The translations under genes and the position numbers were made by a program. The notes below the pieces were generated by a model. The model did no database searches. It saw only the letters and a list, made by a program, of their open reading frames with translations, and was not told where the DNA came from. A stretch of DNA of 64,000 bases, from positions 1 to 64,000 of the forward strand of contig JAPOIM010000006.1 of NCBI GenBank assembly GCA_029978905.1. Reading direction: 5' to 3'. Of this stretch, positions 18,150-22,187 are shown piece after piece (positions within the stretch are counted from its first letter, which is position 1; each line of letters opens with the position of its first letter). Source of the stretch: Planctomycetota bacterium (GTDB lineage: Bacteria > Planctomycetota > Planctomycetia > Pirellulales > UBA1268).

Positions 18150-18307
18150 CAGTCAGCCTTTCATGTGGCAGCGAGAAGAACGCAAAGGGACGGGGTGCAC
18201 CCCGAAAAGATGCGATTGAATGGTGTGTTCCCTGACGAGACCGACGAGTTTGAACGATCCCCTCAGTCGCCGCAACTGCCGGCCGGATGACGCGATCGGG
18301 GCCGCTC

Positions 18308-18445
18308 GGGGTGAGCCCAGTGCTGCCCCACCGGACGTTCGCTGCGGGCCCTCCAGGCCCTCGCTCTCTCGAAGATCCGCGTCGCTTACGCCCTCCAGGC
18401 TTCGCTCGCGTCTCTACGCCGGTGGTTCAGCACCGGGCTCACCCC
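18308..18445. repeat. 138-bp palindromic element, copy A
   Basis: One of three 138-bp copies in the window, aligned without gaps. The 27-base ends (18308-18334 and 18419-18445) are inverted repeats matching at 24 of 27 positions. The outermost bases are GGGGTGAG and CTCACCCC, different from copies B and C but still complementary. Inside are the hairpins GGGCC-CTCCA-GGCCC (18346-18360) and GCGT-CTCT-ACGC. The second internal hairpin is imperfect here (CGAAG-ATCCG-CGTCG). Weak similarity to copies B and C continues about 30 bases past the right arm. It lies between a DUF72 gene and the sugar cassette. Confidence 0.85.
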
Positions 18446-18471
18446 TCGCTACGAGATTAGGGAGGGCCTGT

Positions 18472-18564
18472 TCGCCGCAGGATGCGGCGACCTGCGGCCG
18501 CTTAGAAACCTTGGCTTTCTGAGTGGCCGCCAAGTCAGCAGGGGCCATGGAAGGGCCTGCTGAC
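18472..18564. repeat. cluster of three consecutive hairpins
   Basis: Three separate stem-loops follow one another. The first is 18472-18490, with arms TCGCCGCA and TGCGGCGA and a three-base loop. The second is 18494-18530, a 15-bp stem with two G-T wobbles and a seven-base loop. The third is 18534-18564, with arms GTCAGCAGG and CCTGCTGAC. No T-tract follows any of them on either strand. They fill the space between element copy A and its orphan right arm at 18574-18599. This could be a structured RNA, or more palindromic repeats. Confidence 0.6.
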
Positions 18565-18573
18565 GTGAAGTGA

Positions 18574-18599
18574 GTTCAGCACCGGGCTCACCCCTCGCT
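18574..18599. repeat. orphan right arm of the palindromic element
   Basis: This 26-base stretch is identical to 18425-18450, the right end of copy A, and is in the same orientation 149 bases further on. It contains GCACCGGGCTCACCCCTCGC. It runs into the 3' end of the DUF72 gene and supplies its last codons and stop. A tandem duplication of the element end, or an insertion between two ends, would explain it. Confidence 0.75.
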
Positions 18600-19703
18600 G
18601 ATCAACTGGTTGGCGAGGGCTTCGACGGAGAGTGGGGCGGAGCCTTCGGCTTTGTTGTTGATGGTGATGAACACGTCGCGGGTCTTGGCAACCGCGGCGG
18701 CGATCGTGGAAAGGGCGTGTCGGGTGGGGAGGTCTTCCTCGACAAGGCGGTTGAAGGGGGCGTAGAGGTCCTTGGCTTCCTGGTAGACGAGCCCCGCGTG
18801 GAGGTTCCAGCGGGCGACCAAGGGCAGTTGGCAGTTGGTTGCGGTCAAGCCAAAGGCGTGCGCCTGCTCGTCAACCGGCGGCATCCGCGCATGCACCGCA
18901 AGGCATGGGACGGCTCCTGCGCTGCAGACTGCGTCGCCGAACGCGTCGCACACCAGCTGCGCGTCACGGACTTCGACCGCGTAGAGCGGGCCGCGGGGGA
19001 GGGCGGCGATAAACGCGGCGACGCGTGCGATCAGGCGGGGGAGATCCGCCAGCAGCTTCGCGCCGAGCGGCGGGAACTGAAACACGAGCGGGCCGGCTTT
19101 GGTGCTGAGTCCGGCAACGGCGGGACGGACGAAAACGTCGGTGGCCGCGGCGGCATCGAGAAAGGAGGGGTTCGCGCGCTCGGGCTCTCCCGATCGATTT
19201 CGTCGTAGCACCGCATCAGTGAAGGCCTGCGGTGCTTTGACCACAAACCGAAAGCCCTCGGGAACCTGACGGGCGTAGTCCGCAAATGCGTCGACAGTCA
19301 GGGGGCTGTAGAAGGTGCGGTCGAGGCTGACGGTGCGAAACAGCGGATGCGAGGCGTAGGCCGAGAGCCCTTGCTGGGCGAGCCGGCGTTCGGTTTCCCA
19401 CGTGTCTTCGTGCGAGAGGTCTTCGCTGTCGGCATGGAAGTCAGCCCCCCTGCCCCGCCCTCCCCTTCCCCTTGCGGACCTAGTCTTGGGAGGGCGTGGC
19501 GCGTAGACGATCCCGGTCCAGCCAGGAAACGACCAGCTGGAAGTGCCCAGATGAATCGACGTTGGAAGCCTCGCTGCAAGCTGCGTGTGATGCTCGCTCG
19601 GCTCAGCCGGCTGCACACGGTCATTCGCGGCAACGGGATCCGCAGCAAACTCTTCCCCAAACAGGGAGAGTTGCTGCGGACCACGTGGTTTGTGGATTGC
19701 CAC
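18588..19703 (-). CDS. DUF72 (YecE-like) protein with an inserted segment
   Basis: A 371-residue member of the DUF72 TIM-barrel family, of unknown function. Typical family segments are LGTSSWSFPGWTGIVY (about 52-67), FRFVVKAPQAFTDA, GPLVFQFPP, and YAVEVRDAQL near the C-terminal side. Between GIVYA and LAQQGLSAYASHP, residues about 69-106 form a basic, Gly/Arg-rich stretch that I do not associate with the family. It is encoded by DNA carrying an inverted repeat. The N-terminal 45 residues are also extra and low in structure. The last codons lie in the orphan repeat arm. Confidence 0.8.
   Translation of the reverse strand: MAIHKPRGPQQLSLFGEEFAADPVAANDRVQPAEPSEHHTQLAARLPTSIHLGTSSWSFPGWTGIVYAPRPPKTRSARGRGGRGRGADFHADSEDLSHEDTWETERRLAQQGLSAYASHPLFRTVSLDRTFYSPLTVDAFADYARQVPEGFRFVVKAPQAFTDAVLRRNRSGEPERANPSFLDAAAATDVFVRPAVAGLSTKAGPLVFQFPPLGAKLLADLPRLIARVAAFIAALPRGPLYAVEVRDAQLVCDAFGDAVCSAGAVPCLAVHARMPPVDEQAHAFGLTATNCQLPLVARWNLHAGLVYQEAKDLYAPFNRLVEEDLPTRHALSTIAAAVAKTRDVFITINNKAEGSAPLSVEALANQLISEG
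19386..19499. repeat. probable in-frame palindromic insertion inside the DUF72 gene
   Basis: The DNA encoding DUF72 residues about 69-106 is strongly C-rich on the plus strand and contains the inverted repeat CGCCCTCCC (19456-19464) / GGGAGGGCG (19488-19496), with purine-rich tracts on the coding strand. It keeps the frame open and adds about 38 residues. The boundaries are estimated from where the family pattern breaks off and resumes. No second copy was seen in this window. Confidence 0.45.
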
Positions 19704-19705
19704 AG

Positions 19706-20938
19706 TTACGACTTCTGCCGGAAGACGAATCCGCCCTTCTTATTCCCGATCACGATGTCGACCTTGCCGTCACCATTGAGATCGCCCACGGAGAACTGCG
19801 TGCCGACGCCTGAGTCGTTGTCGATGCGGTGAGGGACGTAATGAGCCTCCACGCCATCGTCACTCGCGGCATGCACCAACTCAAACCAGTAGAGCACGGC
19901 GGCTCCAGCTGGGTCGGCATCTCCCTTGGGACCGTGCGCCCAGAAACGCTTGCCGGTCACGATGTCCATCAGCCCGTCGCCGTTCACGTCGGCGAGTTCG
20001 ACCGCGTGGGGCTGCGAAAACTGCACGCCGTCGAGGTTTTCTTCGGCGACCGCTGGCAGGATCGCGTGCTCCACGAACGTGATGCCGCCATCGTCCCCGG
20101 GCACCTGCTCAAACCAGGAGAGGCCGTAGTCGTGCGCCTTGAGGCTCGTGATCACGTCGCCGTCACCGTCACCGTCAACGTCGTAAACATGCATCTGGGC
20201 ACCACCTGAGCCGAAGGCAAACGGATGCTTTTTCCAAGGCGATCCGTCGGCCGATGCTGGCTGCTCCCACCAGCCCTCACTCATCAGCAGGTCGTGCCGC
20301 CCGTCACCATTCACATCGCCGAAGCCGAGCCCGTGCGTGTACTGCCCCCAGCCATGCATTTCAGAGCATGGATTGAAGAGCCAACGCTCGGTGCCGCTGG
20401 CTTCCGAAGGAGCCGCGAAGCCGAGCACACCGCCCGTGTGGAACACAAGTTCAGGCTTGCCGTCTCCGGTCACGTCGGCGTAGCCAGGCGACTCGTTATC
20501 AACGACGGGGAATGCAAGCTGGCGCTCCCAACGCCCCCCCTGCTCTCCCGGATTACGAAACCAGGCCACCTCTTTGCCGGGCCACACATTGGCCAGCACG
20601 TCGATCCAGCCGTCGCCATCGACGTCGTGCACGAAGGTGATGAAGTTGTTTGAGTAGCCATTCGGGTCGAAGTCTTCGGGCGGATAGATCTCGTGCCGCT
20701 CTGTGAAGTCTGGGCCCGCGTACCAGTACGGTCCGTAGACCGCGTCGCCATGGCCGTCGCGGTTGATGTCTCCCATTCCCGAGCCTTCAGCATGGAAGGT
20801 TCCGGTGAGCGGAATCTTCTCAAAAGTGATCTCGCCCTCGGCTGCGCTTGCCGCAGTGCCGAATGCCGTGCCAGCGACCACAAGCCCCATGGCGATGGCG
20901 ATCTGATGCCGACGCATACCCCGGACGAACGACCTCAT
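19706..20938 (-). CDS. exported FG-GAP/VCBS repeat protein
   Basis: About 410 residues from the ATG at 20938. That start is supported by the ribosome site AAGGGGAG just upstream and by the signal peptide that follows (IAIAMGLVVAGTAFGTAASA). An open frame reaching back to 21055 only reads the adjacent repeat element. The mature protein has at least seven calcium-binding-type FG-GAP/VCBS loops, including DINRDGHGD, DVDGDGWID, DVTGDGKPE, DVNGDGRHD, DVNGDGLMD and DLNGDGKVD. This indicates an integrin-alpha-like beta-propeller outside the cytoplasm. Such proteins are numerous in planctomycetes; the ligand is unknown. Confidence 0.85.
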   Translation of the reverse strand: MRSFVRGMRRHQIAIAMGLVVAGTAFGTAASAAEGEITFEKIPLTGTFHAEGSGMGDINRDGHGDAVYGPYWYAGPDFTERHEIYPPEDFDPNGYSNNFITFVHDVDGDGWIDVLANVWPGKEVAWFRNPGEQGGRWERQLAFPVVDNESPGYADVTGDGKPELVFHTGGVLGFAAPSEASGTERWLFNPCSEMHGWGQYTHGLGFGDVNGDGRHDLLMSEGWWEQPASADGSPWKKHPFAFGSGGAQMHVYDVDGDGDGDVITSLKAHDYGLSWFEQVPGDDGGITFVEHAILPAVAEENLDGVQFSQPHAVELADVNGDGLMDIVTGKRFWAHGPKGDADPAGAAVLYWFELVHAASDDGVEAHYVPHRIDNDSGVGTQFSVGDLNGDGKVDIVIGNKKGGFVFRQKS

Positions 20939-21032
20939 GCTGCTCCCCTTCTTTGGGTGTGTTCCGAAACCCGAATCCAAAAACCTGAAGATAAGAGTAT
21001 GCCGCTGCGACGGTTTCGGTGCGAGTTGCTCG

Positions 21033-21170
21033 GAGGGAGCCCAGAGCTGTCCCACCGGACGTTCGCTGCGGGCCTTCCTGGCCCTCGCTCACTCGAAGAT
21101 CCGCTTCGCTTTCGCCCTCCAGGCTTCGCTCGCGTCTCTACGCCGCTGGGTCAGCACTGGGCTCCCTCCT
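21033..21170. repeat. 138-bp palindromic element, copy B
   Basis: The second 138-bp copy, with inverted arms at 21033-21059 and 21144-21170 matching at 24 of 27 positions and outer ends GGAGGGAG / CTCCCTCC. Internal hairpins are GGGCC-TTCCT-GGCCC (21071-21085), CGAAG-ATCCG-CTTCG (21095-21109) and GCGT-CTCT-ACGC (21133-21144). Similarity to copy C extends about 35 bases beyond the right arm, into a short palindrome with the core AGGACTGTCCT. It lies upstream of both the FG-GAP gene and the divergent membrane-protein gene. Confidence 0.9.
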
Positions 21171-21283
21171 CGCTCGGTGAACTGAGGAAGGACTGTCCTC
21201 CGCCTGCGACCGTAGCGAGTATTCTGCGATCTGTTTCAATGTGCCTTGTGACGGCAGTGCCCCAGCTGGCCAAGAGGGTGTGC

Positions 21284-21934
21284 ATGGGAATATGGGAGCT
21301 TCTTACGAAAGACCTGATGCCCAGCCGGGCGGACCTGCGGTGGAAAGAACCCTGGCTCTACCGCATCCGCCTGCGTGGGGATCTTGTGGCCAGGCTGATG
21401 TTCGTGACGAGTGGCTGGATGGCGGCGACGGCGGGCCTGCTGGCACTCTTCTCAGTGAGTGAGAAGCCAGGTGGACTCGATGTGGCTGTCGGGCTTGGGG
21501 CAGCGGCGGGGCTGGGGCCAGTGGCGCTCACTCTCTTTTTCACCAAGCACGTGGTTTCGGGGCAGGTGAGGATCATCGACGGCGTCATCGAGCGAAAGAC
21601 GCAGTACACCGGGTGGACCGGCCATTGGACGAAGACCGCGAGATGGGATTTGGATGCGGTTGATCCCTACAGGCTGCTCGTTGCAGACAGGGCAACACGA
21701 CCCTTTCATGTGTTGGTCTTGGAGTTTGACGATCGCTGCGAGCTGATCGGCGTTCCACAGCATGTCGACCTGAAAAAGCTGGCGGACCTGCTCTGCTCAT
21801 GCGGTTCGCGTGTGGTGAGTGCGGAGGCGATCGCGCCGCAGTTTGTAAAGAGTGTCTCGCTGGCATTCGCGATGACTGCGGTTGGAGGAAGCGGAGTGCT
21901 GCTCGTGGCGGCTGCCATGGCGGCGTTTGGATAA
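21284..21934 (+). CDS. small hypothetical membrane protein between two repeat copies
   Basis: 216 residues from the ATG at 21284, preceded by AAGAGGG at good spacing. An upstream in-frame ATG at 21239 has no ribosome site. Two probable membrane helices (about 38-56 and 64-86) are followed by a soluble middle region (VRIIDGVIERKTQYTGW, then FHVLVLEFDD) and a C-terminal hydrophobic segment (about 190-213). The layout of two helices followed by a strand-rich region recalls bacterial PH-domain membrane proteins, but I see no diagnostic motif. The gene lies between element copies B and C, which are in the same orientation. Confidence 0.7.
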   Translation: MGIWELLTKDLMPSRADLRWKEPWLYRIRLRGDLVARLMFVTSGWMAATAGLLALFSVSEKPGGLDVAVGLGAAAGLGPVALTLFFTKHVVSGQVRIIDGVIERKTQYTGWTGHWTKTARWDLDAVDPYRLLVADRATRPFHVLVLEFDDRCELIGVPQHVDLKKLADLLCSCGSRVVSAEAIAPQFVKSVSLAFAMTAVGGSGVLLVAAAMAAFG

Positions 21935-21943
21935 GGGCCGCTC

Positions 21944-22081
21944 GGAGGGAGCCCAGAGCTGTCCCACCGGACGTTCGCTGCGGGCCATCCGGGCCCTCGC
22001 TCACTCGAAGATCCGCTTCGCTTTCGCCCTCCAGGCTTCGCTCGCGTCTCTACGCCGGTGGGTCAGCACTGGGCCCCCTCC
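21944..22081. repeat. 138-bp palindromic element, copy C
   Basis: The third 138-bp copy, with arms at 21944-21970 and 22055-22081 matching at 24 of 27 positions. The internal hairpins are as in copy B, except that the first loop is ATCCG (21982-21996). It starts ten bases after the stop of the membrane-protein gene. A perfect short inverted repeat, GGAGGAC-T-GTCCTCC, follows just downstream. Copy B begins 911 bases to the left in the same orientation. Confidence 0.9.
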
Positions 22082-22187
22082 TCGCTCGGTGAATTGAGGG
22101 AGGACTGTCCTCCGCGTGTGGCGTCGGTCTGCGGCGGGCCGGGGACGCTCGGTATCATGCGAGGTTGCGTATCAAGGCCAGCCAGCC

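Follow-up and report, generated by a model that had tools for sequence, protein, structure and literature searches.

Several bacterial repeat systems combine a folded unit with high copy number. Integron attC sites are strand-specific folded recombination sites of 60-150 bp, and ERIC (IRU) elements are extragenic, imperfect palindromes of about 127 bp. REPs are shorter, at 20-40 bp (PMC3733652), and are found chiefly downstream of coding regions (PMC3733652, PMC3116915, PMC8049555), while REPINs consist of two REPs in inverted arrangement and are duplicated by RAYT (PMC8049555). Palindromic intergenic REPs tagged with GTAG or CGTC have been reported from Planctomycetes among other phyla, with the CGTC repeats lacking a dedicated transposase (PMC3733652). 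Also described from Planctomycetes, and from Acidobacteria, are the Class 3 TnpA(Y1) structures, high-copy atypical secondary structures with a CnGA foot beside the Y1 gene (PMC6006769).

Here we describe a previously unnamed family of folded repeats of about 150 bases, present in dozens of copies per genome in one mostly-lake family of Planctomycetes. No description of it was found in the literature on Planctomycetes repeats and REPs, in a search that left most subscription papers outside, and a scan of the window (the whole 64,000-nucleotide stretch of DNA analysed) against Rfam 15 gave 0 matches at the gathering score.

Three copies in the window and the fold of the family

The window holds three copies, A, B and C, all scored with a covariance model, R1, that was built from 38 copies (alignment A2). 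They and the features around them are as follows.

18304-18453, minus strand: copy A, a 150-bp unit (cmsearch with R1, 164.7 bits; alignment A2)
18465-18500, minus strand: module M2 upstream of copy A, with the hairpin CGGCCGCAGGTCGCCGC..GCGGCGAACAGGCC (blastn against the module consensus)
18496-18522, minus strand: module M1 upstream of copy A, with the AGAAAGCCAAGGTTTCT hairpin (blastn against the module consensus)
18574-18599, minus strand: exact 26-bp duplicate of the 5' arm of copy A, 149 bp upstream on the element strand (repeat search)
21028-21177, minus strand: copy B, a 150-bp unit with the palindrome proper at 21032-21169 (cmsearch with R1, 169.8 bits)
21032-21062, minus strand: 3' arm of the outer stem of copy B (A2 structure)
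21070-21083, minus strand: inner hairpin 2 of copy B, GGGCC-AGGAA-GGCCC, loop GGA (A2 columns 97-110)
21114-21124, minus strand: inner hairpin 1 of copy B, GCC-TGGAG-GGC, loop GGA (A2 columns 55-65)
21140-21169, minus strand: 5' arm of the outer stem of copy B (A2 columns 10-39, paired with columns 118-148, that is 21032-21062)
21940-22089, minus strand: copy C, a 150-bp unit (cmsearch with R1, 168.0 bits)

A first-pass annotation of this DNA had aligned the three copies over 138 bases without gaps, and realignment confirmed this. Its coordinates hold for copies A (18308-18445) and C (21944-22081); it had placed copy B, which lies at 21032-21169, one base too far to the right. The 27-base inverted ends that it described are present, with a complementarity of 89% in copies A and B, both double changes that it noted in the outer eight bases do separate the copies, and the GGGCC/GGCCC stem is unchanged among the three while all the five-base loops differ. 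Two further hairpins that it proposed did not survive comparison: copy A reads CGAAG...CGTCG where CGAAG/CTTCG was expected, many other copies read GCTT...ACGC in place of GCGT/ACGC, and the family structure pairs these bases otherwise. Folding is on the minus strand, not on the plus strand that had been described.

The fold is real and is conserved across one bacterial family. None of 200 shuffles was as stable as the real copy for any of A, B and C, with z = -9.2 for copy A and -7.4 for copy B folded as RNA, and -5.1 for copy C folded as DNA. Covariation was assessed in alignment A7, which comprises 36 diverse copies from outside the genus aligned by sequence only; alignment A6, which joined the genus to the rest of the family, was left out because its outer stem was misaligned. 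In A7, a structure of 42 pairs has 97.2% of its cells paired and double changes in 29 of the 42 pairs, with 181 double-changed cells against 47 in shuffles; none of 500 shuffles scored as high on any measure, and slid structures used as a control pair in 32-43%. Among the copies of the source genome, 18 of 46 pairs show double changes. At the core, an outer stem of about 17 pairs leads through a short neck to two arms, both tipped by a small hairpin whose loop retains GGA. Both inner hairpins covary family-wide, hairpin 1 as helix 5 and hairpin 2 as helix 7. Covariation within the source genome and across the family strongly supports conservation of the structure, which had already been read from the three copies.

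The strand that folds can be read from mismatched cells, in that an A-C cell would be G-U on the opposite strand and an excess of G-U marks the folding strand. In the outer stem, G-U outnumbers A-C by 32:4 family-wide and by 49:13 in the source genome, and in the inner helices of the source genome by 29:0, which identifies the minus strand as the one that folds. As this strand is C-rich, a bias from C to T on its G-rich complement would be expected to shift the counts in the opposite direction. Family-wide, the inner helices contain G-U in just 4 of 900 cells despite many double changes; such near-absence of G-U in helices is unusual for RNA.

A nucleotide search of the 4.26-Mb source draft genome gave 47 matches. 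The covariance-model search that the first-pass annotation had suggested, for this genome and its relatives, returned many more copies: 65 matches in the source genome, or 61 places once 4 matches to the opposite strand of palindromes already counted are set aside. Since several copies lie at contig ends, this is probably an undercount. With some 60 copies and many covarying pairs, the family is far from the three isolated copies, devoid of further covariation, that had been allowed for. The same model found the element in 20 of 23 genomes of the same family, 16 of these carriers having from 12 to at least 79 matches each, and found none in the other three or in any of 15 genomes from other families of the order. 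Across named genomes, a degenerate core pattern matched only records labelled as Planctomycetes, mostly lake MAGs; those labelled Kuenenia are probably mislabelled. Viral contigs contained no exact match to the pattern.

Orientation, neighbours and shared positions

With genes called by a simple codon-usage finder, no copy lies within a predicted gene, either in the source genome (0 of 49) or in a second genome of the genus, G001 (0 of 25), which disposes of the earlier concern that the copies might be fragments of a protein-coding gene. Of 46 downstream genes in the source genome, 31 are oriented against the element and have their stop codon about 22 bp from it; in G001 the orientation of downstream genes is split about evenly. 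Genes were rejected as the cause of element orientation, the flanking genes being on either strand.

Copies within a contig nevertheless agree in strand almost without exception in this genus: 34 of 35 in G000, 70 of 71 in G001 and 23 of 23 in G003, a total of 127 of 129, against expectations of about 26, 48 and 17, respectively. The three species are not independent tests of polarity, since their positions are largely shared. Polarity is weaker in a genome of another genus (G006, 45 of 53, p 0.002) and not significant in G010 (11 of 14), so it is not shown for the family as a whole. Some copies outside the genus occur as inverted pairs a short distance apart, much like REP doublets (L077, L079, L130, L141, L154, L169).

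When stretches are read along the element, 26 of 27 (26 from G001 plus the window) have a negative GC skew, on contigs of either orientation; at four-fold sites the skew is negative in 21 of the 27, and in the flanks of source-genome copies in 41 of 49. The folding strand is hence the C-rich strand, while the coding strand around copies is mixed. The leading strand is usually the G-rich one, and by this rule the folding strand has lagging-strand sequence, with replication direction read from GC skew as a proxy.

The element shares its surroundings with other folded repeats. M2 forms another repeat family, which is stacked on the 5' side of the element; at copy A, M2 and M1 lie upstream with the 26-bp duplicate of the 5' arm beyond both, and in G001 the element closes a stack of unrelated folded repeats that follows a common order. 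Over 496 kb of G001, non-palindromic modules share the element strand (M2 50 of 50, R3 15 of 15, M1 7 of 7, R0 14 of 15). The intergenic stacks of G001 (L111-L129, for example L121 8404-8981) include a three-hairpin palindrome, GGGACGGGTC...GACCCGTCCC, with GAA loops.

A 231-aa ORF (window 21239-21934, plus strand) with no Pfam match separates copies B and C, which share an orientation and are 93-97% alike. The ORF is absent at the G001 site and is present in G003 with a copy behind it; the difference would reflect either a gain resembling that of a cassette or the deletion of the ORF between direct repeats. A DUF72 gene (18588-19703, minus strand) adjoins copy A; it is gone together with copy A at the G001 and G002 site and present in G003. 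On G001 contig C24 (L129 4807-11949), three secreted-looking proteins with PEP-like C termini are separated by long non-coding gaps, with an element 0.4-1.3 kb after each. On source contig C201, at about 83,680 (L046 19676-19862), some 150 bp of sequence recur at more than 10 places in G001 with 69-77% identity, and are probably an N-terminal coding region shared by a large paralogue family.

Positions are largely shared between species. Most source copies whose flanks could be matched to G001 have a counterpart there that occupies the same junction and points the same way, in a sample enriched for G001 copies. A stretch of source contig C160, picked without knowledge of G001, has three element-bearing junctions, all of them occupied in both G001 and G003. 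Combined, 13 of 15 source sites with an identifiable G001 counterpart are occupied in G001, the exceptions being copy A and a pair on C151. Some gain or loss continues, as site A shows: its copy is absent from G001 and G002, and none was observed in G003.

At these shared places the sequences themselves do not follow descent. Copy identity within a genome is 0.849 in G000, and 0.945 and 0.979 in two subfamilies of G001, compared with 0.82 and 0.67 between species. Copies at orthologous sites resemble each other no more than they do randomly chosen copies of their type, with orthologues ranking 15/20, 16/20, 9/18, 3/20, 3/18, 9/18, 4/18, 11/20, 15/20 and 3/18. Five shared sites carry a 142-bp body in G001 and a 150-bp body in G000. 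5'-truncated copies often stand in tandem behind full copies, and in one case (C9:90050) a 142-type remnant lies behind a 150-type copy. The copies are homogenised within each genome at fixed, largely ancient places, a pattern of concerted evolution from which we infer overwriting on the basis of two species. Most copies are old and fixed in place, and do not look recently spread.

Candidate mechanism and competing explanations

No Y1/RAYT gene (PF01797) was found in the source genome. Nor was Y1 found in 8 of 17 copy-rich genomes, some of them 95-97% complete; about half of the carriers have one or two Y1 genes of RAYT-like length, and the loci of 11 same-family Y1 genes contain no R1 match. 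On G001 contig C17, two RAYT-like Y1 genes (L197 4074-4724 and 6141-6482) lie amid many GGTGTCAGGAACCTTTTTC palindromes, a separate REP family. The flanks of the element give no sign of a target-site duplication, sharing no more than swapped flanks do (3.86 against 3.68), and the empty site that corresponds to copy A reads ambiguously in this respect. Y1/RAYT was rejected as the mobiliser, since it was not found in about half of the copy-rich carriers and no copy adjoins a Y1 gene in the loci examined; the earlier suggestion of spread by a host transposase is not supported.

We propose, with a probability of about 0.5, that the element belongs with the non-autonomous hairpin repeats of the REP/REPIN/ERIC kind and that its copies are homogenised in place, by a copying process that is specific to one strand and linked to replication. 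Resident copies would be overwritten by sister copies of the same genome, either through copy-into-copy conversion or through insertion into the resident copy, and the copying may act on the folded strand while it is single-stranded, at the replication fork or in its wake. Such overwriting would keep position and orientation and preserve the fold while replacing the sequence. The original insertions may themselves have been strand-selective, which would explain the polarity. The enzyme might be a dedicated transposase since lost, a general recombination or repair activity, or an enzyme of another kind. An overwritten resident hairpin is the best reading, given that no Y1/RAYT was found in the source genome or in about half of the copy-rich carriers and that a target-site duplication signal and an attC core are lacking. 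Going further, we speculate that a population of hairpin DNA could be kept without any dedicated transposase, through sister-copy overwriting at replication, with places and strand fixed for the age of the genus while the set evolves as one and retains its fold; this stronger version seems rather unlikely, and we know of no such transposase-free mode of maintenance in bacteria.

The main rival to a DNA repeat is a role in RNA, in which a minus-strand transcript would present the two GGA hairpins, for example as a CsrA binding site or decoy. Massive covariation, a tolerance of G-U on one strand that makes an RNA role possible, and the retention of GGA in both loops all speak for it, as does the presence of CsrA in 39 of 39 genomes (3 matches in the source genome); CsrA occurs, however, in all 15 genomes from other families, which are without the element, and being found in every genome of the order examined it is uninformative on a decoy. 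Flanking genes lie on either strand and orientation tracks GC skew rather than genes. Moreover, read-through from the downstream genes of the source genome, most of them opposed to the element and ending so close to it, would yield the non-folding strand, which counts against RNA, as do the inner helices nearly without G-U and the empty Rfam scan of the window. We regard a structured RNA as doubtful. Three features favour a repeat that acts at the level of DNA, namely the replication-linked polarity, the intergenic placement whatever the strand of the adjacent genes, and the homogenisation in place. The first-pass annotation had left a choice between a structured RNA family and a mobile palindrome; membership in a dispersed palindromic repeat family is strongly supported, and the preference for DNA over RNA is tentative.

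An ordinary mobile element, a REPIN or MITE spread by Y1/RAYT or another transposase, would likewise be palindromic, intergenic and multi-copy, and could account for the near-identical 142-bp copies in G001 and for the RAYT-length Y1 genes of about half the carriers. It is unlikely in view of the copy-rich genomes in which Y1 was not found, the same-family Y1 loci that lack the element, the different repeat that flanks the Y1 genes of G001, the missing target-site duplication signal and the age of most positions. Near-absolute polarity and conserved positions within the genus would also suit a KOPS-like signal of chromosome polarity, read by a DNA translocase or segregation protein and kept in orientation by selection. 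Short polar motifs are invariant, whereas this is a 150-bp covarying fold that changes freely; unrelated modules have the same polarity, the signal is not significant in G010, and three same-family genomes have no copy at all, making this explanation very unlikely.

The polarity of 127 of 129 copies, together with concerted evolution at fixed sites, provides signatures by which the copying of bacterial interspersed repeats can be tested, an issue still open for REP families without a transposase. The element could also mark replication direction in uncultured lake Planctomycetes, and it offers a set of structured sequences big enough to ask whether selection on a fold acts on DNA or on RNA.

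Relation to known repeat systems

The element resembles ERIC in size and in being imperfectly palindromic and extragenic; it differs in occurring in different bacteria and in showing no detected duplication at its ends, and to our knowledge neither replication polarity nor stacked modules have been described for ERIC. It has the terminal inverted repeats of MITE- and ERIC-like elements, in its 27-bp ends and covarying outer stem, without a signal of their target-site duplication. Like a structured RNA, it has a conserved, covarying secondary structure. Paired RYYYAAC/GTTRRRY core sites of the attC type occur in just 1 of 37 copies, and the element is dispersed among chromosomal genes, whereas attC sites lie in cassette arrays.

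The nearest described structures in related bacteria are those of Class 3 TnpA, from which the element is set apart by the absence of a Y1 gene near its copies in the loci checked and by the many carriers without a detectable Y1. In contrast to GTAG- and CGTC-tagged REPs, it has no unpaired terminal tag; its ends are CCNAGCGAG and CCGAGCGG, and GTAG and CGTC are confined to the interior of the fold, where they are largely paired. With REPs and REPINs it shares the character of an intergenic, palindromic, non-autonomous repeat that persists in a lineage in dozens of copies. It has the palindromic unit and the many intergenic copies of a REPIN/RAYT system; no RAYT gene was found in the source genome or in 8 of 17 copy-rich genomes, and none was seen flanked by the repeat in the loci checked. 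It departs from both REPs and REPINs in its three-part fold of 140-150 bp, in a strict polarity within one genus and in homogenisation in place. By build and place, the element belongs with the bacterial interspersed palindromic repeats REP, REPIN and ERIC (PMC3733652, PMC3116915, PMC8049555), and it goes beyond an ordinary REP family in that no Y1/RAYT was found in 8 of 17 copy-rich genomes, in the polarity and shared positions of its copies within a genus, and in their concerted evolution.
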